A stretch of 64,000 nucleotides of DNA from Kosakonia arachidis. GTDB lineage: Bacteria > Pseudomonadota > Gammaproteobacteria > Enterobacterales > Enterobacteriaceae. Numbering within the stretch: position 1 is the stretch's first letter; every line of letters begins with the position of its first letter. Position numbers and translations under genes: made by a program. Under the pieces are notes generated by a model. It was not told where the DNA came from, ran no database searches, and saw only the letters and a program-made list of their open reading frames with translations. The stretch covers positions 979,218 through 1,043,217 of the forward strand of contig NZ_FPAU01000001.1 of the NCBI RefSeq assembly GCF_900116535.1, in the 5' to 3' direction. Shown here one piece after another: positions 53,151-64,000 of this stretch.

Positions 53151-53755
53151 GTAAAAGGGCGCTTTTTTTGGCCGTGCTTCCCAATCCAGGATATATCCAA
53201 TCCTTACAAAGAGGCCTGCTAAAAGTCCTCCGGACTGACGAGACCAGTTTCGCCGTCATTCGTGAGGACATCGACCAGCCCATAATTGCACGAGACCACA
53301 GGTCGGGCACCACCGCCAGATACTGCCAGCCTTCATCCGTGCGAAGGTACGTAATGTCTCCTGCCCACTTCTGGTTCGGGCCGCTGGCGTAAAAATCCTG
53401 TTTTAGCAGGTTCTCTGACACAGGCAAGCCGTGCTCACGGTAACTGACCGGGCTGAACTTCCGGGTGGCTTTCGCCCGCAGTCCCTGACGGCGCAGGCTG
53501 TCGGCGATGGTTTTGATATTGTATTCAGGCAGTTCTTCGGCGAGACGAGGCGCACCATAACGCTGCTTTGTCTCAGTGAATGCCTGACCGACAGCAGTAT
53601 CACATATCACAGGTGAGCCGGAACTTCTGGTGAGGGCCGGGTTGATGGTGACGCTTGAGCCAGGCATACCAGCCGCTTCGGGCAACCCGAAGCACACGAC
53701 ACATGGTTTTGACGATGAACTCAGCCTGATGCTTTTCGATGAAGACAAGCTTCAT
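53151..53755 (-). pseudogene. IS3-family orfB (transposase), frameshifted and truncated
   Basis: Leftward from ATG 53755 (which overlaps the orfA stop as ATGA) one frame gives [20 protein letters not shown] and [13 protein letters not shown], then stops. A second frame continues with [20 protein letters not shown], then [19 protein letters not shown] and [18 protein letters not shown]. This is the rve-type DDE domain, with the first Asp in GDITYLRT. Similarity ends after about 180 residues; the remaining DDE residues and the right IS end are absent. The element cannot move by itself. Confidence 0.88.
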
Positions 53756-54051
53756 TTCAGGCGCTTCGTGAAGTATGTCGCGGCCTTCTGGAGAATGGCT
53801 AGTTCTTCATCCCGTTCAGCCAGTTGTCGCTTAAGGCGGGCGATTTCAACAGACATTTCCTGCTCTCGTTCGGAAGAAGAATGGGCATTCTTTAGCTTGC
53901 TGCGCCAGGCGTAGAGTTGCGACTCATACAGACTGAGTTCACGGGCGGCAGCGGCGACACCGATGCGTTCAGCGAGTTTCAGGGCTGCATCGCGGAATTT
54001 AGGTGTGTACTGTTTACGGACCGTTTTGCTGGTTTTGTCATGAGTAATCAC
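53752..54051 (-). CDS. IS3-family OrfA (transposase helper)
   Basis: A 99-residue OrfA with an N-terminal helix-turn-helix ([11 protein letters not shown]-type sequence, here [20 protein letters not shown]) and a C-terminal leucine-zipper region ([26 protein letters not shown]). It is complete and ends ATGA-overlapped with orfB, where a programmed frameshift would normally join the two. Because orfB is broken, it is only a relic gene product. Confidence 0.88.
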
Positions 54052-54376: not shown

Positions 54377-55555
54377 ATGTTCAGCCGTTTTATAACCTAC
54401 TCAGCATCTTTCTTTTTGTCATTGCCCGTCTTCATCATAAGTTTACCGGGGCACACAGCATCTTTAACGGACACGGCTGAATACCAACAGATAAGCGGGC
54501 TGATCAGGGAACCACTGACGCTGTCCGTCACTTTAAATAATGGTCAGCCTGCAATACTTGATGCTTTTGTCACACGGCCGGTTAGCAAGAAACCTTTGCC
54601 GATTGTGTTAATCACCAATGGAACGACCGGTACGGCTGAGTTTGATCGCTGGACGCTTAACCCAAACCGGTACTCCTCAACGGCAATCGCATTTGCACGC
54701 CACGGATATGCTGCTGTGGTTGTCCTCCGGCAGGGATATGGTCAGTCCAGTGGCGCTGCAGAATATACAGGACACTCATGCACCCAGCCCTTTCATCTTC
54801 AGGCCGGAGAACAGGACGTCCAAAATATGGTTGCGGCGCTTGACGCTGTGCGCCGGAACTCATGGGCGTCTGTTGACAACGCGATGCTGGTTGGTATGTC
54901 GGCCGGTGGATTTGCTGTAATCGCAACAGGCGCAACAAATCCACAAGGCGTTAAGGCGGTTATCAATTTTGATGGCGGCAGAGGGGCTATCGACGGCAAA
55001 TCCCTCTGTGATAAGACAGGCCTGATGAAAACGTATGAACAATACGGAAAAACAGCGAAGCTCCCTTCACTGTGGCTTTACGCAGAAAATGATAAGTCGT
55101 TTCCCCCGGATACAGGCAGAGAAATGTTTAATGCCTATCAGCAGAATACAAGCCCGGCCCGGTTCATCGTCATGCCTCCTTACGGGAAGGATGGACATGT
55201 TTTTATGGATTCAGCGCCGGAGAGTTTCTGGTGGAATACCGTTGCCACTTTTCTTGAGCAGAACCATCAGCCCTTTCAGGAGATAATCAAGCTTCCTGTC
55301 GTAAATCTAATTGAGCCGCCAGCCCTGAATGCTGCCGGAAAAAAAGCTTTTTCCGAGTATGAAACAACGCAGCGATATGAAAAAGCATTTGCTACCGATC
55401 CGGACGGGGACTGGGGAGCTGCATATTGGGCCAGAAATAGTCAGGAAGCGGCCGCAACAGCACTTAGTATCTGTACAAAGGAACAACGGAAAGGCGCAGC
55501 TAAATGCACACTTTACGCTATCAACAATAATTACGCCTCAGAGAAAGTGCACTGA
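54377..55555 (+). CDS. Secreted alpha/beta hydrolase (dienelactone-hydrolase-like)
   Basis: A 392-residue protein with a signal peptide (about residues 1-28) and an alpha/beta-hydrolase fold. The nucleophile elbow is GMSAG (173-177, Ser175), and the likely acid and His are in LYAENDKSFPP and YGKDGHVFM. Two cysteines (TGHSCTQPF and KSLCDK) could form a periplasmic disulfide. The C-terminal extension of about 90 residues (EPPALNAAGKKAFSEYETTQRYEKAF) looks like a Gly/Ala-poor helical tail seen in some periplasmic esterases. The substrate is unknown. It stands alone, convergent with the next hydrolase. Confidence 0.78.
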   Translation: MFSRFITYSASFFLSLPVFIISLPGHTASLTDTAEYQQISGLIREPLTLSVTLNNGQPAILDAFVTRPVSKKPLPIVLITNGTTGTAEFDRWTLNPNRYSSTAIAFARHGYAAVVVLRQGYGQSSGAAEYTGHSCTQPFHLQAGEQDVQNMVAALDAVRRNSWASVDNAMLVGMSAGGFAVIATGATNPQGVKAVINFDGGRGAIDGKSLCDKTGLMKTYEQYGKTAKLPSLWLYAENDKSFPPDTGREMFNAYQQNTSPARFIVMPPYGKDGHVFMDSAPESFWWNTVATFLEQNHQPFQEIIKLPVVNLIEPPALNAAGKKAFSEYETTQRYEKAFATDPDGDWGAAYWARNSQEAAATALSICTKEQRKGAAKCTLYAINNNYASEKVH

Positions 55556-55718: not shown

Positions 55719-56687
55719 TTAATGACGCAATGCGTTATGAGTCATAAATTCAGTAATGGCGTCAACTACCCCTGGGGCCAGTGGTAGAGATGCGTTTGTA
55801 TAAGCTGAATTATTCTCACATCTGTCGGCTGAATGAACCTCTTTAAGAACGTGGTTTACATCCGGCAAAAGGACAAGGGTTGATTTTGGATTCGCTGACT
55901 TAAGCTTTCGGGCATCATTTTCCGTTACCTGCAGAACGCGTTGCCCCTGTAATATCAATACTGGTTTCGTAATACGGGCTATTAGATGACTTGGGTTAAA
56001 GGAAAAAATATCCATAAGAAATCCCTGAACAGCTGGATGAAATATCCTTTGCAGAGCGGGGTGCATATTCTGAACATTGGTTCGCCTGTTATGCTCTAAC
56101 TCATTGATAACGAAGAGAGCATCGTCCAGCAGGATTGCATTTTCCTGATTGGCCTTAAACTGATACCTTAACACTTCCCCCAAAGGACTCGAGGGTGTTG
56201 CAACCACAATTAAACCATATACATCACGTTCCTCCGCTGCGGCCAATGCCACGATCCCCCCTTCACTGTGCCCGAGAAGCCAGATACAGGGACTTTCCAG
56301 ATGTTGTTTCAATACCGTTATCCAGGAACGAACATCCTCAACATAATCATTGATTGTCACTGCGTTTGTGTCCGTTACCGCCGCTGAACTGGCAAACATT
56401 CCACGCTTATCTACTCGCAACGTTGCGATGTCGTTTAACGCCATATTTTCCGCAAGAAGCCGATAAGTTGAAGCATTAACGCCAAGAGGATTATTACCGT
56501 CCCGGTCAGTTGGTCCGGAACCTGGAATAATCAGAATGACATTTTTTGGATTCGGGTATGGGCTAAGTAGGATGCCCTGGAGAGAGCCTTGCGGGCCCTG
56601 CGCCTGCAGAAAGGTTTCATATGTATTTTTATGCATAATAAAATGAGCCATATAAACTATTTTTATGAAAAACACAGACTGCATCAT
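55719..56687 (-). CDS. Cytoplasmic alpha/beta hydrolase
   Basis: A 322-residue alpha/beta hydrolase. The oxyanion-hole region LIIPGSGPTDRDGNNPLG and nucleophile elbow GHSEGG (Ser141) are typical of a group often annotated as dienelactone or acyl-CoA-thioester hydrolases. The His is in LLPDVNHVLKEV. The start is uncertain: ATG 56687 is used, but 56651 or 56636 would remove a short hydrophobic N terminus, and no ribosome site stands out. It is convergent with the secreted hydrolase. Confidence 0.75.
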   Translation of the reverse strand: MMQSVFFIKIVYMAHFIMHKNTYETFLQAQGPQGSLQGILLSPYPNPKNVILIIPGSGPTDRDGNNPLGVNASTYRLLAENMALNDIATLRVDKRGMFASSAAVTDTNAVTINDYVEDVRSWITVLKQHLESPCIWLLGHSEGGIVALAAAEERDVYGLIVVATPSSPLGEVLRYQFKANQENAILLDDALFVINELEHNRRTNVQNMHPALQRIFHPAVQGFLMDIFSFNPSHLIARITKPVLILQGQRVLQVTENDARKLKSANPKSTLVLLPDVNHVLKEVHSADRCENNSAYTNASLPLAPGVVDAITEFMTHNALRH

Positions 56688-57016: not shown

Positions 57017-57400
57017 TTAGCGGCGTATTGCCATTGCCTCAATTTCCACACCGGCATCTTTTGGCAGGCGTGCCACTTCCACGCAGGAACGTGCCGGAAA
57101 AGCGGCGTGATGTTCGCGGAAAAAGGCTTCATACACCGCGTTCACCTGCGAAAAATGATTGAGATCTTTGACAAAAATTGTTGTTTTAACAATATCCGCC
57201 ACCTGCAGACCACTTGCTTCGATAATGGCCTGTACATTTTCCAGCGACTGCCGGGTTTGCTGCTCGATACCCGCCGCCATCTCACCCGTCGCAGGGTTTA
57301 GCGGGATCTGCCCGGAAGTGAACACCAGGAAGCCTAAATCTACTCCCTGAACATAAGGCCCAATAGCGGCAGGTGCCTGCGAAGTTGAAATTGCTGACAT
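57017..57400 (-). CDS. RidA-family enamine/imine deaminase
   Basis: A 127-residue YjgF/YER057c/UK114-family protein. The arginine of the active site is in FPARSCVEVARLPKD, and the family signature EIEAMAIRR ends the protein. RidA proteins hydrolyse reactive enamine/imine intermediates released by PLP enzymes. This is a second, locus-specific RidA rather than the housekeeping ridA, judged by its context: it is the last gene of a leftward group with a ProC-like reductase, an M20 amidohydrolase and a GntR regulator. Confidence 0.9.
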   Translation of the reverse strand: MSAISTSQAPAAIGPYVQGVDLGFLVFTSGQIPLNPATGEMAAGIEQQTRQSLENVQAIIEASGLQVADIVKTTIFVKDLNHFSQVNAVYEAFFREHHAAFPARSCVEVARLPKDAGVEIEAMAIRR

Positions 57401-57425
57401 AGACCAACCTTGTTAAAAAGTAGCG

Positions 57426-58229
57426 TTATTTTTGACCGGAAAGCTCCGTTGTACGACGTACCGCAGCCAGAACGCTGCTTTGCAGTCCAGCGGCGAAATC
57501 ACTTTTATTCAGCTCGTATAAACCATTAATGCCGACACCCGCCGGAGAGTTATTAATATCCATCAGTTGGCGTGGATGGCGTCCGGATAACTTAAGCATT
57601 TCAACCGCGCCGACCAGGTTTTCCCACACCACTTGCGTTGACTGAGTACGGGTTAATCCGGCAAGAACACCGGCGTCAGCCAGCGCTTCGACAAAGTAAT
57701 AGACATAGTTGACGCCAGCGACAGCAAACCCGGTGAAGACGTCAATCAGCCGTTCCTCCAGCACCATCACCTTGCCGAAACTTTCAAGAAATGGCATAAC
57801 GGACGCACTGTTGACATAAGCATTAAACGCCACGCCGCTGTAGCCCAGCCCGGTATCCGTCAGGGTATTCGGGATGATGCGCGTAATCGGGCGCGTCTCG
57901 CCCAGCATCAAAGACAGCTGTGCCAGCGTTACGCCTGCAATAATAGATATGACCGACGCCTGTGGCGCTGCATGCTGCTTAATCAGTTGTGCGACACCCG
58001 CAATATCATCCTGCGGACGTATTCCCATCACGATGTGATCCGCTGCAGCCAGCGCGTCGGGCAGATCTTGTGTATTGCTCAACTGGTAGCGCGCTTTCAG
58101 CGTTTCAATTCGTGCGGGATCAATATCCGATAAGCTGACCTCATCCGGTTTTAATGCGCCGCGTTTTAAGGCGGCGCGCAGAATCGCTTCGGTCATTTGA
58201 CCGGCACCAATAAAGTGGATATGGCTCAT
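57426..58229 (-). CDS. ProC-like pyrroline-5-carboxylate reductase family protein
   Basis: A 267-residue NAD(P)H-dependent imine reductase of the P5CR family. The Rossmann motif GAGQMTEAI begins at residue 8. The C-terminal dimer domain contains GVNYVYYFVEALADAGVLAGLTR and the conserved NNSPAGVGINGLYEL (compare SPGGTT in ProC). The latter is altered from the usual ProC motif, suggesting a substrate other than pyrroline-5-carboxylate. ATG 58229 is 2 bp past the amidohydrolase stop. Confidence 0.85.
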   Translation of the reverse strand: MSHIHFIGAGQMTEAILRAALKRGALKPDEVSLSDIDPARIETLKARYQLSNTQDLPDALAAADHIVMGIRPQDDIAGVAQLIKQHAAPQASVISIIAGVTLAQLSLMLGETRPITRIIPNTLTDTGLGYSGVAFNAYVNSASVMPFLESFGKVMVLEERLIDVFTGFAVAGVNYVYYFVEALADAGVLAGLTRTQSTQVVWENLVGAVEMLKLSGRHPRQLMDINNSPAGVGINGLYELNKSDFAAGLQSSVLAAVRRTTELSGQK

Positions 58230-58231
58230 AG

Positions 58232-59410
58232 TTAATCCTCGGCAGTAACAGAAACAGGGCTCAATGACCTTTCCACCAGCGATACCCAAAGACCGATGCC
58301 AGGCGCGATAAGTTGGTCATTAAAATCGTAATGTGGGTTATGTAATGCCGCGCCTGGCGTTGGGCCATCGGCCCCCAGCCACAGATAAGCGCCCGGACAG
58401 GCCTCCAGAAAATAGGCGAAATCTTCTGCCGCCATTGATGGCGATAACTGCGTATGGACCTGCGTGATCCCGGGGACCTGGCGCGCGGCATCTGCCAGAA
58501 TTGTCGCTTGCGGCGCGTGGTTGACAGTGACCGGATACCCGTATTCCCAGCGAATGCTGCCACTGACGCCAAACGGCCCGGTGATCTGTTCGACATACTC
58601 CGCCATCAGGGTCTGGCAACGCACTCTGGCGGCCTGGCTCAGGCAACGCAGTGTGCCGGACAATAGCATTGTCTGCGGAACGACATTTATTGCTTCTCCG
58701 GCCTGCAGTTGCGTCACGCTGATCACAGCGCTGTCCAGAGGAGAGAGGCGACGTGTGGTGATCGTTTGCAACGCGGTAATCAGGTGTGCACCGGCCAGCA
58801 CCGGGTCGGCACCTTTTTCCGGCATTGCCGCATGGCATCCGACGCCAGTCAGCGTAATAAAAAAATTGTCCTGCGAAGCCATCATTGGACCTGCGCTAAC
58901 GGCCACTTCCCCTACAGGCAACCCCGGCCAGTTATGCAGCGCATAAACCGCAGAAACGGGAAAACGCGTCAAGATCCCTTCTTCCACCATCAAACGCCCG
59001 CCGCCAGCGTTCTCTTCCGCAGGCTGAAAAATAAAGTACACCGTACCGTTAAATGCTCTGGTCTGGCTGAGATAGCGTGCTGCACCCAGCAGAATGGCGG
59101 TATGCCCGTCATGTCCACAGGCGTGCATCGTGCCGGGCGATGCTGAGCACCAGGCAACGACATTGTTTTCCTGGATGGGTAATGCATCAATATCAGCGCG
59201 AAGGGCTATAGCCGGACCATCGCCATGGCGAAGAACACCAATCACGCCCGTACCCGCAATGCCGGTATGCACTTCAAGATCATATTCGCGCAGCAGGCTG
59301 CTGATTTTTGCGGAAGTATGAAACTCTTGTAAGCCAATTTCTGGTCGCGCGTGGATCTCACGTCGCCAGATAATCGCCTGTTGAATAATCTCTTCGGGAA
59401 TTTGGGGCAT
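58232..59410 (-). CDS. M20 amidohydrolase (hippurate/IAA-amino-acid hydrolase-like)
   Basis: A 392-residue M20D-family metal-dependent amidohydrolase. The metal ligands are in MHACGHDGHTAILLGAA (Cys98, His100, His103) and PAEENAGGGRLMVEEG, and later YALHNWPGLP; RADIDALP (71-78) is present. The group removes amino acids from N-acyl or auxin conjugates, or deacetylates. ATG 59410 is preceded by AGAGGAAAT. It is the first enzyme after the GntR gene and abuts the ProC-like gene. Confidence 0.9.
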   Translation of the reverse strand: MPQIPEEIIQQAIIWRREIHARPEIGLQEFHTSAKISSLLREYDLEVHTGIAGTGVIGVLRHGDGPAIALRADIDALPIQENNVVAWCSASPGTMHACGHDGHTAILLGAARYLSQTRAFNGTVYFIFQPAEENAGGGRLMVEEGILTRFPVSAVYALHNWPGLPVGEVAVSAGPMMASQDNFFITLTGVGCHAAMPEKGADPVLAGAHLITALQTITTRRLSPLDSAVISVTQLQAGEAINVVPQTMLLSGTLRCLSQAARVRCQTLMAEYVEQITGPFGVSGSIRWEYGYPVTVNHAPQATILADAARQVPGITQVHTQLSPSMAAEDFAYFLEACPGAYLWLGADGPTPGAALHNPHYDFNDQLIAPGIGLWVSLVERSLSPVSVTAED

Positions 59411-59531
59411 ATTTCCTCTGCATTTTCCCGGCGCAATGCCGCAGCATGGCGCTGTGAATGGATTACCGGAACGCATAATGCCCTCTGGTAGCCGCTTAAA
59501 TTATCGTTTTGATCTTAACGAAAAGATCGGT

Positions 59532-60233
59532 TCAGGGTTTACCAAAATAGATTCTGGCGAGCCCTTCTTTTGTCACTTCAACCGCGTGCCCGGCACTCAA
59601 TGAAATATGTTGCTCAATCAGCACCACGCCTTTTTCTATATCCCGCTGACGTAATGCCGCGATGATTTCGACATGCTCGTCATAGGCATTGTTCCTGCGT
59701 ACAGGCGTTTCGAGATCGATACGCCGGAAAAAACGGCTTAGCGAATTTAGGCTATCGAGCATTTCATAGAGCCGACTGTTATGAGAAATACGGGCTATTT
59801 CCATGTGAAAACGCTCATCGATTTCCGCTATCTTCGCCCAGTCCTGTTCGGTTTGCGCCGGGCGATGCTGGCTCACTTCCTCCCAGATCGCCGTGGTTGC
59901 AGCGATCTCTTCATCTGTTGCCCGCAGGCAGGCGAAGCGAAAGGTTGATTGCTCTATCACCATTCGCACTTCATACAGCTCTCGGACACCTTCCGGCGTC
60001 AGGTCACGAGAGTAAAACCCCCGGTTGGGTACAAAGTTCATAAAGCCGTCTTTTGCCAGACGGTTCAGCGCTTCCCGTACCGGGGTACGCGAGACGCCCA
60101 ACTGTGCCGCAAGCTCCACTTCATTCACCCGTTCGCCGGGACGAAAGTGGTAATCAATCGCCAGACCTTTCACTTTCTCGTAGACCTTTTCCACGCTGTC
60201 AGCGCTACGGGATTTCTTTTTAATAGTAACCAC
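59532..60233 (-). CDS. GntR-family (FCD subfamily) transcriptional regulator
   Basis: A 233-residue regulator. The N-terminal winged helix is at residues 35-65 (ELAAQLGVSRTPVREALNRL). The helical FCD ligand domain (about 80-225) has the typical metal-coordinating Asp/His residues (DERFHMEIARISHN; DEHVEII). GTG 60233 follows AAGGGG. It faces a divergent ABC-transporter operon across a 547-bp region with three palindromes, so it is probably the shared repressor. Confidence 0.9.
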   Translation of the reverse strand: MVTIKKKSRSADSVEKVYEKVKGLAIDYHFRPGERVNEVELAAQLGVSRTPVREALNRLAKDGFMNFVPNRGFYSRDLTPEGVRELYEVRMVIEQSTFRFACLRATDEEIAATTAIWEEVSQHRPAQTEQDWAKIAEIDERFHMEIARISHNSRLYEMLDSLNSLSRFFRRIDLETPVRRNNAYDEHVEIIAALRQRDIEKGVVLIEQHISLSAGHAVEVTKEGLARIYFGKP

Positions 60234-60780
60234 ATTATCCCCTTAATTTACCGCATACCCAGCACGAAAATAAAAATGCTGTACAGGTGATTTCACGTAA
60301 TATTTTTATTGATAGCACAGCAAAAAAAACAACTCAACACAAAAGTGAATACACTTTAATTTTATTTAAAAGGTACTGATTTATAATGTTTTTTTATATT
60401 ATTCATCGTCGTGAAGTTTTCTCGCACCATTTTATGGCAACACTGCACCAAAAAGACTCAAAGTGTATTCACTTTTGCATGTAAATCTTTTTGTAAACCA
60501 CGAAGATAAAGGAAAATGAAAGTTTCACTATGTGATTTTTATTATTTTCGATTCCCTTGTATTTATTCGGGAATTTGCATTTACCTCACCGGAAATAAGC
60601 AGATGCTGTCTGAGACATCCTGGCTGCCTGGCATCGTTTTTGCTTAATACACAAGTGTATGCACTTATATATTCACTTTAGTGCGCGCTTATTCGGCATT
60701 ACCAGGCAGGCTTGTGCATGTTTGCGCAGGCGACAAAACACCGGCCTCAGAAGCCGGTCACAGCAAACCGGAGAACCAAC
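60234..60780. promoter_or_regulatory. Divergent regulatory region with three GntR-type palindromes
   Basis: No gene is present. AAAGTGAATACACTTT (60342-60357), its mirror AAAGTGTATTCACTTT (60460-60475) and AAGTGTATGCACTT (60653-60666) share the form AAGTG-N4-CACTT. A half-site TATTCACTTT follows at 60670-60679. They lie between the divergent GntR and ABC-transporter genes and are the likely binding sites of the GntR protein. Confidence 0.8.
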
Positions 60781-61908
60781 ATGAAAAATTGTTTTGGGCA
60801 GGGCATGACTTTGTCAACACTGGCAGGTATGACGTTGTTAGGTCTGGCGCACACCGCGCAGGCCGATGTAAACATTGGTGCAATTTTGCCTTTAACCGGC
60901 ACCAGCGCCAGCATTGGTGAAGATCAACGTCGTGGTATTGAACTGGCGGTTGAACAGGTAAATGCCCATGGCGGCGTTAATGGTCAACCATTACATGTGA
61001 TCGTGGAAGATTCCGCCGAAAGCCCGGTAACAGGCCTGAACGCCGTACGTAAGTTAACGCAGGTTAACCATGTACCTTTAGTGGTGGGCAGTTTTTCCTC
61101 CAGCGTCACTATTCCGGTTGGGCAATATCTGGTGAAGAACAATCTGCTGCACATCAATATTTCCGGCACCAGCACTGATATCCGCAAAATCGGCGCGACC
61201 TCCTGGAGCGTTATTGGCCTGGATTCCCTTTCCGCGAGCTTCTCGGCAGAAGATGTACGTCAGCTCGGTTACAGCAAAGTAGCCTTTATCGCCCCGGATG
61301 GAGCTTATGGTCAGGGTATGGCGGAGCAGTTCACCAAAGCGTTTGAAAAAGCGGGTGGCAAAGTGGTCGCCAAAGTGCTCTATACCAGCGGTCAGCCTTC
61401 TTATCGCCGCGAGCTGGAGCAAATCTCCCGCGCCCATCCACAAGCCTATGTTTATACCAGCTACGGACAGGATGCGATTGTGCTGAACCGTGAGGCCTGG
61501 GAATTGGGGCTGAATAAAACGCCCTGGTATGGCATGTATTTAACTATGGCCATTGAAGGTTCCCCGGCGCAGTACACCAACGGGCAGGTTGGTATGGAAG
61601 TCGCGGGTATTGACCAGAAAGCGGCGAGCGGCAACGGCGCAAATTATGCTGATCTGTACCAGAAAAAATTCCATGAGAAGCCTCGCTCCGTGTACGGCAG
61701 CTATGCCTGGGATAGCGTGATGCTGGCAGCGGCAGCGATTGATAAAGCGCACAGTGCCGATCCGGCAGCCATGATCGCGGCAATGAAAACTGTTGCGCCT
61801 GGCTTTACGGGCATTACCGGAACATTAAATCTGGATGCCGATAACCAGCGTCAGTCCCAGCCATACCTGAAAGTGAAAGCGTTTAATGGCGTACCGGTTC
61901 CCCGGTAA
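60781..61908 (+). CDS. Periplasmic substrate-binding protein, branched-chain amino-acid type ABC
   Basis: A 375-residue type-I periplasmic binding protein of the LivJ/AmiC-like group. The signal peptide ends near residue 28 (AHTAQA). The opening VNIGAILPLTGTSASIGEDQRRGIELAVEQVNAHGGVNGQPL is characteristic. ATG 60781 is preceded by GGAGAACC. It is the first gene of a rightward transporter operon, 48 bp before its permease. The substrate is likely an amino acid derivative, not necessarily branched-chain. Confidence 0.92.
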   Translation: MKNCFGQGMTLSTLAGMTLLGLAHTAQADVNIGAILPLTGTSASIGEDQRRGIELAVEQVNAHGGVNGQPLHVIVEDSAESPVTGLNAVRKLTQVNHVPLVVGSFSSSVTIPVGQYLVKNNLLHINISGTSTDIRKIGATSWSVIGLDSLSASFSAEDVRQLGYSKVAFIAPDGAYGQGMAEQFTKAFEKAGGKVVAKVLYTSGQPSYRRELEQISRAHPQAYVYTSYGQDAIVLNREAWELGLNKTPWYGMYLTMAIEGSPAQYTNGQVGMEVAGIDQKAASGNGANYADLYQKKFHEKPRSVYGSYAWDSVMLAAAAIDKAHSADPAAMIAAMKTVAPGFTGITGTLNLDADNQRQSQPYLKVKAFNGVPVPR

Positions 61909-61956
61909 CGAGTCGCTTTATCTTGCCAGTTCACGCTACATCATCGGGGAAAAACC

Positions 61957-62850
61957 ATGCTGCAGTTTTTGATTGATACATTGATTCGCACTGCGGATTT
62001 GTCGCTGGTCGCGCTGGGATTAAGCCTGGTATACGGGCTGGTACGGTTCGCCAACATCGCCCATATGCAATATGCCATGGTCGGTTCATTTATTACCGCT
62101 GCCGGGCTTCATCTTGGCATGCCGTTGTCTCTGGCAATCGTGTTTTCGGCAATGGTCTGCGGCATGCTGTCCATGATGTTGCATCACTGGGTGTACCAGC
62201 CGCTGCTGAAAAGCGGCACCGCTAACGCCATGATTGGCTCGTTGGCGGTATCGATGGTGCTGATTGCTCTGGTTCTCGGGGTTGAAGGATCGGCCCCGGT
62301 GAATTATTCCCTGCCAGTTGGCGCACTCGTGCAAGTTGGTGACACCCGCATCTCCTCCGACGAGCTCTGGAGTCTTGGCGTCACGATTTCTCTGGTAGTG
62401 ATGTTCAGTCTGCTGCTGTTTCGCACGCCACAAGGCCGCGCTATCCGTGCGCTGGCCAGTAACCGGGATCTGGCAGCAGCCTCCGGGTTAAATGCCAGCG
62501 CCATTATCCACACCGTCAATCTGGTGGCCGGAATGCTGGCCGCCGTGGGCGGCAGCATGCTGGCGATGAACGCCAGCGCATGGGTTAACCAGGGCAATGA
62601 TCTGATGTTGCCGGTACTCGCTGCCGCCATTCTCGGCGGGCTGGGAAACCCAATGGGCGCCATTTTTGGCGCGCTCCTTATCGCGGCAACCGAAACCCTC
62701 GTTACCAACATCGACTGGAGCTGGCTGTTCGGCGGCGACTTATTGTTTATCCCGGTGACCTGGGTGAATGCCTCATCTTTTGTGATTCTGCTGCTGGCGC
62801 TGTTACTGCGTCCTTATGGCCTGTTTAACCGGGAGGTTCGCCGTGTCTGA
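61957..62850 (+). CDS. ABC transporter permease, LivH type
   Basis: A 297-residue inner-membrane permease with about eight helices. The family motif SLVALGLSLVYGLVRFANIAHMQ is near the N terminus, and the NDLMLPVLAAAILGGLGNPMGAIFGAL coupling region near the C terminus contacts the ATPase. Its stop overlaps the next permease start by 8 bp. Confidence 0.92.
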   Translation: MLQFLIDTLIRTADLSLVALGLSLVYGLVRFANIAHMQYAMVGSFITAAGLHLGMPLSLAIVFSAMVCGMLSMMLHHWVYQPLLKSGTANAMIGSLAVSMVLIALVLGVEGSAPVNYSLPVGALVQVGDTRISSDELWSLGVTISLVVMFSLLLFRTPQGRAIRALASNRDLAAASGLNASAIIHTVNLVAGMLAAVGGSMLAMNASAWVNQGNDLMLPVLAAAILGGLGNPMGAIFGALLIAATETLVTNIDWSWLFGGDLLFIPVTWVNASSFVILLLALLLRPYGLFNREVRRV

Positions 62851-63730
62851 GTTTTTACTGCATATCCTTTGCCTTGCCGGGATATATGCCATTGTTGCGC
62901 TTGCTCTGAATTTACAGGCAGGTTACGCCGGTTTACTGAATTTCGGTCATATCGTGTTTGTCGGCACTGGCGCTTATGCCATCGGTCTGGGAAGCAATTT
63001 GGGGTTACCGCTGTGGCTGGTGATCCCGGCCGGATTACTGTGTGCCCTTGTTATCAGCGCGTTAATGACGTTGCTGGGCCGTCAGCTCACGGCTGATTAC
63101 TGGGGCATTGCCACGCTGGCGCTGGCTGAAATCATCCGTATTGCGGTCGTCAATGAAGACCGTCTGACGGGCGGCGCGCAGGGGATTGGCGGGCTGTCCG
63201 CGCCCTGGTCAACTGGCGATACGGTCACTGATACGCGTATCTTCGCGGTCATTATTCTGCTCAGCGTTATCGTCGCCACGCTCGTCAGCCTGCGGATCGG
63301 TGCCAGCCGGTTTGGCCGGGCGCTGCGGCTGATGCGTGAGCAACCTCAATTAGCGATCTGCATGGGCTATGCGCTGCCGTGGCTGAAATGCCGCGCGTTA
63401 ATGAGTAGCGCGGTGATGTGCTGTCTGGCCGGCATGTTACTGGCCTGGTACACCGACTATGTCAGCCCGGATTATTTGCTCTCTTCGGAAACCTTTCTTA
63501 TCTGGAGCATGGTGATGATCGGCGGTATTGGCAATGTGCGCGGTGTGCTGTTGGGCGTGTTGCTGGTGGAAGCGCTGTATAACTTTATCCCCTTCGCAAA
63601 AGACTATTTCCATATCAGTTCAGATCTGACTGGCGCTCTGCGCCTGGGGTTGGTTGGTCTGGCTCTATTACTGTGTCTGCTCACCCGGCCGGGGGGCCTG
63701 TTACCGGAAAAATTAAGGACTTTATCATGA
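62843..63730 (+). CDS. ABC transporter permease, LivM type
   Basis: A 295-residue second permease of the HAAT-type importer. GTG 62843 is used with GGGAGG upstream. The motif LNLQAGYAGLLNFGHIVFVGTGAYAIGL and the coupling region IWSMVMIGGIGNVRGVLLGVLL are typical of LivM. The end overlaps the following ATPase start (TCATGA). Confidence 0.92.
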   Translation: MSEFLLHILCLAGIYAIVALALNLQAGYAGLLNFGHIVFVGTGAYAIGLGSNLGLPLWLVIPAGLLCALVISALMTLLGRQLTADYWGIATLALAEIIRIAVVNEDRLTGGAQGIGGLSAPWSTGDTVTDTRIFAVIILLSVIVATLVSLRIGASRFGRALRLMREQPQLAICMGYALPWLKCRALMSSAVMCCLAGMLLAWYTDYVSPDYLLSSETFLIWSMVMIGGIGNVRGVLLGVLLVEALYNFIPFAKDYFHISSDLTGALRLGLVGLALLLCLLTRPGGLLPEKLRTLS

Positions 63731-64000
63731 GCCGTTTGCTTGAAGTGGCTGATGTCAGCAAAGCCTTTGGTGGCAACCAGGTACTGACATCCGTGTCATT
63801 TACGCTGGAAAAGGGCGAAATTCTTGGTCTGCTGGGGCCGAATGGTTCCGGTAAAAGCACGCTGCTCAACACCATTTCCGGGTTTACCCGACCAGATGGC
63901 GGCAGCATCACATTTGATGGTCGCTCCATTGCTTGTCAGCCAAGCCACCGGATCATCCAGGCGGGCATTGCGCGTACCTTCCAGCTCCCCGTTATGCCGG
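63727..64000 (+). CDS. ABC transporter ATPase, LivG type (3' end cut by window)
   Basis: The first 91 codons of an ABC ATPase are present from ATG 63727. Walker A GPNGSGKST is at residues 37-45. The Q-loop region FQLPVMP, preceded by the LivG-type GIARTF, is just visible at the window edge. It belongs to the same translationally coupled operon; a LivF-type partner is expected beyond the window. Confidence 0.9.
   Translation, partial: MSRLLEVADVSKAFGGNQVLTSVSFTLEKGEILGLLGPNGSGKSTLLNTISGFTRPDGGSITFDGRSIACQPSHRIIQAGIARTFQLPVMP

Follow-up and report, generated by a model that had tools for sequence, protein, structure and literature searches.

Positions 57,017 to 64,000 of a stretch of 64,000 nucleotides from the genome of Kosakonia arachidis (contig NZ_FPAU01000001.1; the whole stretch is called the window, and its first letter is position 1) hold a divergent locus, in which a GntR-FCD regulator, an M20 amidohydrolase, a ProC-like enzyme and a RidA family protein face an ATP-binding cassette (ABC) importer of the HAAT type. 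An initial annotation, made from the sequence alone, had described these genes, and all were found where it placed them, with domain profiles in agreement. The minus strand carries the GntR-FCD gene (59532-60233), whose product has both the winged helix (PF00392, 56.3 bits) and the FCD domain (PF07729, 92.9 bits), the M20 gene (58232-59410; PF01546), the gene for the ProC-like protein, a putative imine reductase of a distinct subfamily (57426-58229), and, 25 bp after it, the accessory RidA gene (57017-57400; PF01042, 145 bits). A gap of 547 bp separates the GntR gene from the importer genes on the plus strand: the periplasmic binding protein (60781-61908; Peripla_BP_6, PF13458, 190 bits), a LivH-type and a LivM-type permease (61957-62850 and 62843-63730; both BPD_transp_2, PF02653, 99 and 138 bits) and a LivG-type ATPase (63727-64000; PF00005), which is cut by the window end. 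Beyond the window, a LivF gene and a gene for a VOC protein (L009:7720-9315, of which L009:8473-9315 is the VOC gene) complete the importer operon; some 33 bp separate LivF from the VOC gene, which therefore probably belongs to that operon. The VOC protein has 280 residues and matches Glyoxalase_3 (PF13468) with 97.1 bits, for a cut-off of 25.1.

Several of these proteins belong to known families but stand apart within them. The M20 protein scores 326.6 bits with TIGR01891, above the subfamily cut-off (153.75 bits), and its best solved relative is YxeP (1ysj), but it differs from this type in that it reaches no equivalog cut-off (353.1 of 550 bits for the ectoine model DoeB2, NF038260). RidA likewise clears the subfamily cut-off of TIGR00004 (171.1 versus 106.25 bits) and stays below that of the equivalog PRK11401 (183.3 of 222 bits). 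The importer has the composition and the LivJ/H/M/G/F order of Liv-type systems, with one binding protein, two permeases and two ATPases, but its binding protein and permeases are far under the cut-offs of the Liv and Urt models; the nearest solved binding protein is 4n0q (93 bits).

The gap contains three copies of the palindrome AAGTG-N4-CACTT, which the initial annotation had proposed as GntR operators and which all match without mismatch: operator 1, on the side of the GntR gene (60343-60356, AAGTGAATACACTT), operator 2, in the middle (60461-60474, AAGTGTATTCACTT), and operator 3 (60653-60666, AAGTGTATGCACTT). The whole 5.1 Mb genome has four such sites, against 13 for the reversed control, and all but one of the four lie in this gap; the tighter form AAGTGNATNCACTT occurs three times, always in this gap (0 for the reversed control). 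Only exact sites stand out, as the 19 window matches at up to two mismatches are no excess over chance (shuffle mean of 24). In 22 divergent gaps of HAAT loci, exact copies of the looser palindrome number 33 in 13,137 bp, versus 0 in 445,985 bp outside the gaps of the same loci; with up to two mismatches allowed, 62 copies lie inside and 105 outside. Operator 1 is kept in 22 of 22 gaps at up to two mismatches, and operator 3 in all 22 at one mismatch at most; both end operators are also present in the gap of L072, which was added later as the 23rd. Only some of the HAAT loci have the middle operator. This conservation supports the proposal that the GntR protein binds the three palindromes.

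Ahead of operator 3, a predicted sigma54 promoter of the -24/-12 type is directed at the importer operon (60629-60644, plus strand, TGGCATCGTTTTTGCT), for which the published consensus is TGGCACnnTTnTTGC (PMC8743547, available in part). The TGGCA...TTGC element with the right spacing is conserved in 22 of the 23 HAAT gaps at 9 or more of the 12 scored positions (19 gaps at 10 or more, three at 9), for a background, gap sites included, of 90 sites at 10 or more in 1,875,344 positions. In the gap of L018, the opposite strand holds another site with 9 matches. In the window's own genome, the 16-mer TGGCAYN5TTGCW occurs at 25 sites, versus 7 for the reversed control. The element begins 24 to 33 bp ahead of operator 3, counted from start to start, and sigma54 elements usually stand at such a distance from the transcription start, so that operator 3 would lie at the start site itself. 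A combined pattern of sigma54 element and operator was searched in a sample of 392 genomes of the family, which were screened for this pattern and not for the locus; it is present in 13 of them, at one site each (0 for the reversed control), always between a GntR gene and a binding-protein gene, and it would miss the TTGCC form of L017 to L019.

Further upstream, two weak NtrC-like boxes lie on the plus strand at 60423-60439 (CGCACCATTTTATGGCA) and, 21 bp after the first, at 60444-60460 (TGCACCAAAAAGACTCA); the published NtrC box consensus is TGCACCAnnnTGGTGCA (PMC8743547, same limit). Perfect GCACN7GTGC boxes are present in four gaps (L016 to L019), and for 14 of the 23 gaps no more than 5% of shuffles, drawn as first-order Markov samples, contain a box as good as the best one. 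Nitrogen control of the HAAT version of the locus is likely from these features. The initial annotation had missed this conserved promoter with its boxes, as well as the VOC partner and the exchange of importer types described below.

The ProC-like enzyme has the Rossmann and dimerisation domains of pyrroline-5-carboxylate (P5C) reductases (PF03807 and PF14748, both above cut-off) and is 30% identical to the canonical ProC encoded elsewhere in the same genome. It differs from the canonical enzyme in its gene neighbourhood, in its score with TIGR00112, which is under the cut-off (184.3 versus 196.75 bits; 183.8 in the genome search, where the canonical gene scores 309.7), and in its pocket. The residues that bind the substrate in E. 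coli ProC are Met119, Gly173, Ser174, Val229, Ser231, Thr235 and Thr236, the last two holding the carboxylate, according to the available part of PMC12899673; in human PYCR1, the matching Thr238 likewise binds the carboxylate (PMC7939384, also available in part). The genome's own ProC has all seven at the E. coli numbers, and aligned to it the window protein keeps Ser231 only, the others being replaced (Met119 by Ile, Gly173 by Val, Ser174 by Ala, Val229 by Asn, Thr235 by Val and Thr236 by Gly). The altered SPAGVG motif pointed out in the initial annotation is indeed there, at residues 228-233.

These changes are fixed in the subfamily. All 38 aligned members have Val-Gly in place of the Thr-Thr pair and contain both PNTLTDTG and DINNSP[AG]GVG; a third motif, FTGF-[AG][VI]AG-x-NY, is found in the same members, with FTAF in two and FTGY in one. 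The alignment is a cluster of open reading frames (ORFs) that left out L020, masked by an overlapping ORF, and L045, a fragment; PNTLTDTG and SPAGVG also occur in six further members. The predicted structure has a mean predicted local distance difference test (pLDDT) of 77.5, but falls below 50 at residues 223-253, and was not used for this reason. By its sequence, the enzyme is not a P5C reductase, and the record name to that effect is probably wrong (one source names only the domain). Because the carboxylate-binding and other pocket residues are changed, it is probably an imine reductase for a putative new type of substrate, one without proline's carboxylate in the usual presentation.

Forty-six loci with a ProC-like gene were compared: two plasmid hits, the window's own genome, 37 loci from a genome scan, which used exact peptide patterns of one query and may have missed distant members, and six from further genomes. 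Counting hits over at least 40% of the query length at E 1e-12, a VOC protein of the PF13468 type is present in 37, GntR and the HAAT binding protein in 23 (the raw tallies, 24 each, include one unrelated weak hit, in L035 and L028), and M20 in 18, all of them among these 23. A Dpp-type binding protein is found in ten loci and a PAAT-type one in eight, and a hydrolase of the PF14196 type is found in seven loci. The initial annotation expected its gene set to co-occur in other genomes, and for GntR, M20, the ProC-like enzyme and the HAAT importer this is what we see (M20 in 18 of 23 GntR and HAAT loci), but not for RidA. The latter stands beside the ProC-like gene in only 6 of the 46 loci (the window's own and others titled Kosakonia or Mangrovibacter in their records), a seventh entry of the tally (L026) being a 32% match about 8 kb away. 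The two genes are neighbours in all five HAAT-type copies from the genus sample and in three loci of Mangrovibacter. No RidA gene was found in the stretches examined around the copies on the Rahnella plasmid and in Dickeya, whose remaining parts are 91% identical. A core role was rejected on this count, and we regard RidA as an add-on.

The VOC protein, on the other hand, accompanies all three importer types: it is found in 19 of 23 HAAT, 10 of 10 Dpp and 6 of 8 PAAT loci. In Dpp and PAAT loci, its gene adjoins the ProC-like gene or is one gene away on the same strand, and most HAAT loci have it at the end of the importer operon opposite, about 7 kb off. A different VOC subfamily, placed in the GntR operon, is found in L020, L024, L039 and L072; altogether the loci use three subfamilies, two of which are 19 to 24% identical to the window's type. 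No known reaction of Glyoxalase_3 proteins was found in the available portions of the literature naming PF13468. Related VOC proteins (45 to 50%) are shared with a cluster of Pantoea and Erwinia made of a TIGR04028 ABC importer, a luciferase-like monooxygenase, AhpD and VOC. Of four such clusters, two have a whole amidohydrolase, one a fragment and one none annotated; they differ from our loci by oxidative enzymes in place of the ProC-like one, by the importer, and by the lack of a sigma54 element in the two upstream stretches searched. Two distant VOC relatives, on plasmids of Ketogulonicigenium and Methylobacterium (L051 and L052), lie near genes of the hydantoinase or oxoprolinase type, a hint to amide or lactam substrates.

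A phylogenetic tree groups the ProC-like genes in a single clade, to the exclusion of the two true ProC that served as the only outgroup (the fragment L045 was left out, and L072 has a long branch). Within it, the PAAT loci make up a clade of their own, as the HAAT loci very nearly do (two changes needed), and the Dpp version requires four changes. From this single clade and the clade pattern of the importers, we conclude that the same ProC-like enzyme has been combined with ABC importers of three families (HAAT, Dpp and PAAT).

How might such a locus work? Under nitrogen shortage, an NtrC-type activator would switch on the sigma54 promoter of the importer operon, which comprises the binding protein, two permeases, two ATPases and the VOC protein. 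The GntR-FCD repressor would hold this promoter at the start-site palindrome and its own operon at another palindrome, until released by the imported compound. The M20 amidohydrolase would then cut this compound, and the ProC-like enzyme, whose pocket no longer resembles that for P5C, would reduce an imine; the VOC protein would act in the same pathway, with RidA as an optional helper. The sequences themselves show the gene families, the operators, the sigma54 element, conservation, the pairing with VOC and the altered pocket; that the proteins bind DNA, that nitrogen controls the locus in living cells, and all of the catalysis, amide hydrolysis and imine reduction included, we infer. The initial annotation had read the parts as one pathway, in which an N-acylated or amide-linked amino or imino compound is imported and hydrolysed and the imine is handled by reduction and by RidA. 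Half of this reading stands, its chemistry still conditional, but RidA leaves the core and VOC has to be added.

On balance, we lean towards an accessory nitrogen-scavenging locus, induced by nitrogen limitation together with the substrate. The locus is a new combination of known parts, and its ProC-like enzyme a new branch with a putative new substrate. A bolder proposal, which we make tentatively and hold to be somewhat short of an even chance, is that of a new nitrogen-scavenging pathway for a new class of amide-linked or cyclic imino compound. It would unite a branch of the ProC family seen in our searches only in Enterobacterales, acting as an imine reductase on a substrate that lacks proline's carboxylate, a PF13468 VOC partner, three importer families and, in the HAAT version, an AND gate made of a sigma54 promoter and a start-site GntR operator. 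We found no description of the gene set among the matches listed in searches of the open literature (for the set, its parts, PF13468, the thiazoline hydrolase and Kosakonia), nor is it mentioned in the available part of a survey of proC neighbourhoods (PMC12899673, section 2.8). The interest of the locus is that a fixed ProC subfamily not expected to make proline, a glyoxalase-like family and a nitrogen-type promoter become testable together: the promoter indicates the growth conditions under which to look for the substrate, and the identity of the substrate would show what these enterobacteria scavenge under nitrogen shortage.

Several observations weigh against nitrogen scavenging in this form. 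M20 is missing from 28 of the 46 loci and VOC from nine (four Lonsdalea, two Klebsiella, L037, L042 and L068); the four Lonsdalea loci have kept GntR, the importer and the ProC-like gene and have neither M20 nor VOC, so that the order of M20 then ProC-like enzyme is not general. Moreover, the counts across loci are not independent, as many come from close relatives. The window's NtrC-like boxes are degenerate against the published box, 12% of shuffles being as good; the best box is above 5% of shuffles in 9 of the 23 gaps (47% in L044, the highest), and in L002 and L024 it is away from the usual place. The importer activator could also be another sigma54 activator than one of the NtrC type. 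The -12 part of the sigma54 element is broken in L016, and a search of the minus strand for a sigma70-type promoter of the GntR operon gave none. Finally, no sigma54 element with 9 or more matches was found upstream of the eight PAAT loci, in five Dpp divergent gaps (both directions), or in four stretches of the second family of the order described below (f27), the two TIGR04028 stretches and one Sodalis stretch; nitrogen control would thus be limited to the HAAT version.

The alternative that survives best, unlikely as we find it, is the salvage of sulfur heterocycles. The substrate would be a thiazoline or thiazolidine derived from cysteine, or a modified cysteine, whose ring C-N bond would be reduced or oxidised by the ProC-like enzyme, and which M20 or an ATC-type hydrolase would open or deacylate. 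E. coli ProC does oxidise thiazolidine-4-carboxylate, according to the available part of PMC12899673. In seven of the eight PAAT loci, a gene of PF14196, the L-2-amino-thiazoline-4-carboxylate hydrolase family, lies upstream of the ProC-like gene (the assignment comes from a Pfam run on one of these genes, which the others match at 72 to 90%); VOC is missing from two of these seven loci. The PAAT binding protein of L029 has Lmo2349 as its best match and B. subtilis YtmK as the third, both of which we take to be linked to cystine, and its best NCBIfam model is a cystine binding protein, although far under the cut-off (62 of 312 bits). The Klebsiella copy L031 has Met-type ABC genes in its vicinity, and a VOC relative (47 to 48%) is found with M20 and a luciferase-like monooxygenase in Pantoea. 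However, membership in PF14196 does not fix the substrate, every one of these sulfur hints comes from other loci, and the window's version, with its sigma54 element and NtrC-like boxes, points to nitrogen. Both elements are kept as candidates, and because the promoter is of the nitrogen type, our analysis favours a nitrogen source over a sulfur one.

Ordinary proline salvage is more doubtful still. M20 would deacylate a compound resembling N-acyl glutamate-semialdehyde, which would cyclise to P5C and be turned into proline by the ProC-like enzyme. The ProC fold and dimer domain are in keeping with this. So is a second ProC-type gene present in tandem in five loci (L026, L030, L033, L034 and L045), the one in L033 having the score of a true ProC (285 bits). 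Such tandems were noted in Serratia, Brenneria and Symbiopectobacterium (L033:9154-9972, L026:9140-9961 and the genes after). But a true ProC in tandem suggests that its ProC-like partner does something else, and the score under the TIGR00112 cut-off, the replacement of six of the seven residues, in the same way throughout the subfamily, and the canonical ProC already present in the genome all argue against proline as the product.

Slightly less probable again is detoxification, with a toxic cyclic imine or amide being made harmless rather than used as a nutrient. VOC proteins are often resistance or detoxification enzymes, RidA removes reactive imines, and the distribution is patchy, only 5 of the 15 genomes in the genus sample having the ProC-like gene; yet an importer of its own and a promoter of the nitrogen type speak for use rather than defence. 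As to the hydrolysis of plant hormone conjugates, such as those of indole-3-acetic acid (IAA) with amino acids, we think it very improbable: M20 matches the IAA-amino acid hydrolase ILL2 (234 bits) and some carriers were isolated from plants according to their source fields, but M20 belongs to a broad family and is closer to B. subtilis YxeP (269 bits), and the reductase and the VOC protein have no known role in that chemistry.

Nitrogen scavenging, as we favour it, would be an accessory trait, and the distribution of the locus suggests horizontal transfer, which is the simple reading because the 8.7 kb core is 91.3% identical to copies on a Rahnella megaplasmid and in Dickeya oryzae, for 93.8 to 94.3% in K. 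sacchari and K. oryziphila. In the flank of the Dickeya copy, a stretch of 1.2 kb matches the window's own genome at 77% and one of 0.7 kb at 98%, so that identities are mixed there and the 98% stretch may itself be mobile; the latter (L011:16717-17428, identical at 98% to another place in the window's genome, C6:1496188-1496900) is perhaps a second mobile piece. Among 150 plasmid records, 11 have a match of at least 60% (ten Rahnella and one Pantoea), and no other exceeds 34% among the 40 matches listed. In 5,426 E. coli genomes, no record covers 80% of a 3.9 kb query, weaker partial relatives being possible, and of the 5,382 matching records the 20 listed are all ridA, at about 73%; this search does not exclude records near the window's own genome. 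In a sample of the order, 7 of 394 genomes reach E 1e-60 for the ProC-like protein. Outside the Enterobacterales, in samples of 369 genomes of the class and 398 of the phylum, some of them shared, a search with a deep-branching member as query found only the window's own genome at E 1e-42.

In a second family of the order (f27, genus g62, with genomes of 2.2 to 2.8 Mb; L067 to L071), five genomes carry the ProC-like gene, four of them with a Dpp importer and VOC, and these copies branch deepest in the tree; that the genus consists of gut symbionts is a mere guess. The sole non-enterobacterial name in the genome scan is that of L012, titled Martelella alba (listed under Aurantimonadaceae); it is nested among enterobacterial loci and reflects either a mislabelled genome or a far transfer. 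Within the window's genus, one genome (G401) has two members of the subfamily (L074 and L077), one a 98% copy accompanied by M20 and RidA, the other, at a separate place, a 63% copy. Beside the locus, the window contains a transposase-like ORF and two alpha/beta-hydrolase-like ORFs (53752-54051, 54377-55555 and 55719-56687), and a LysE-type flanking gene is common to the window's genome and K. oryziphila, all judged by eye.

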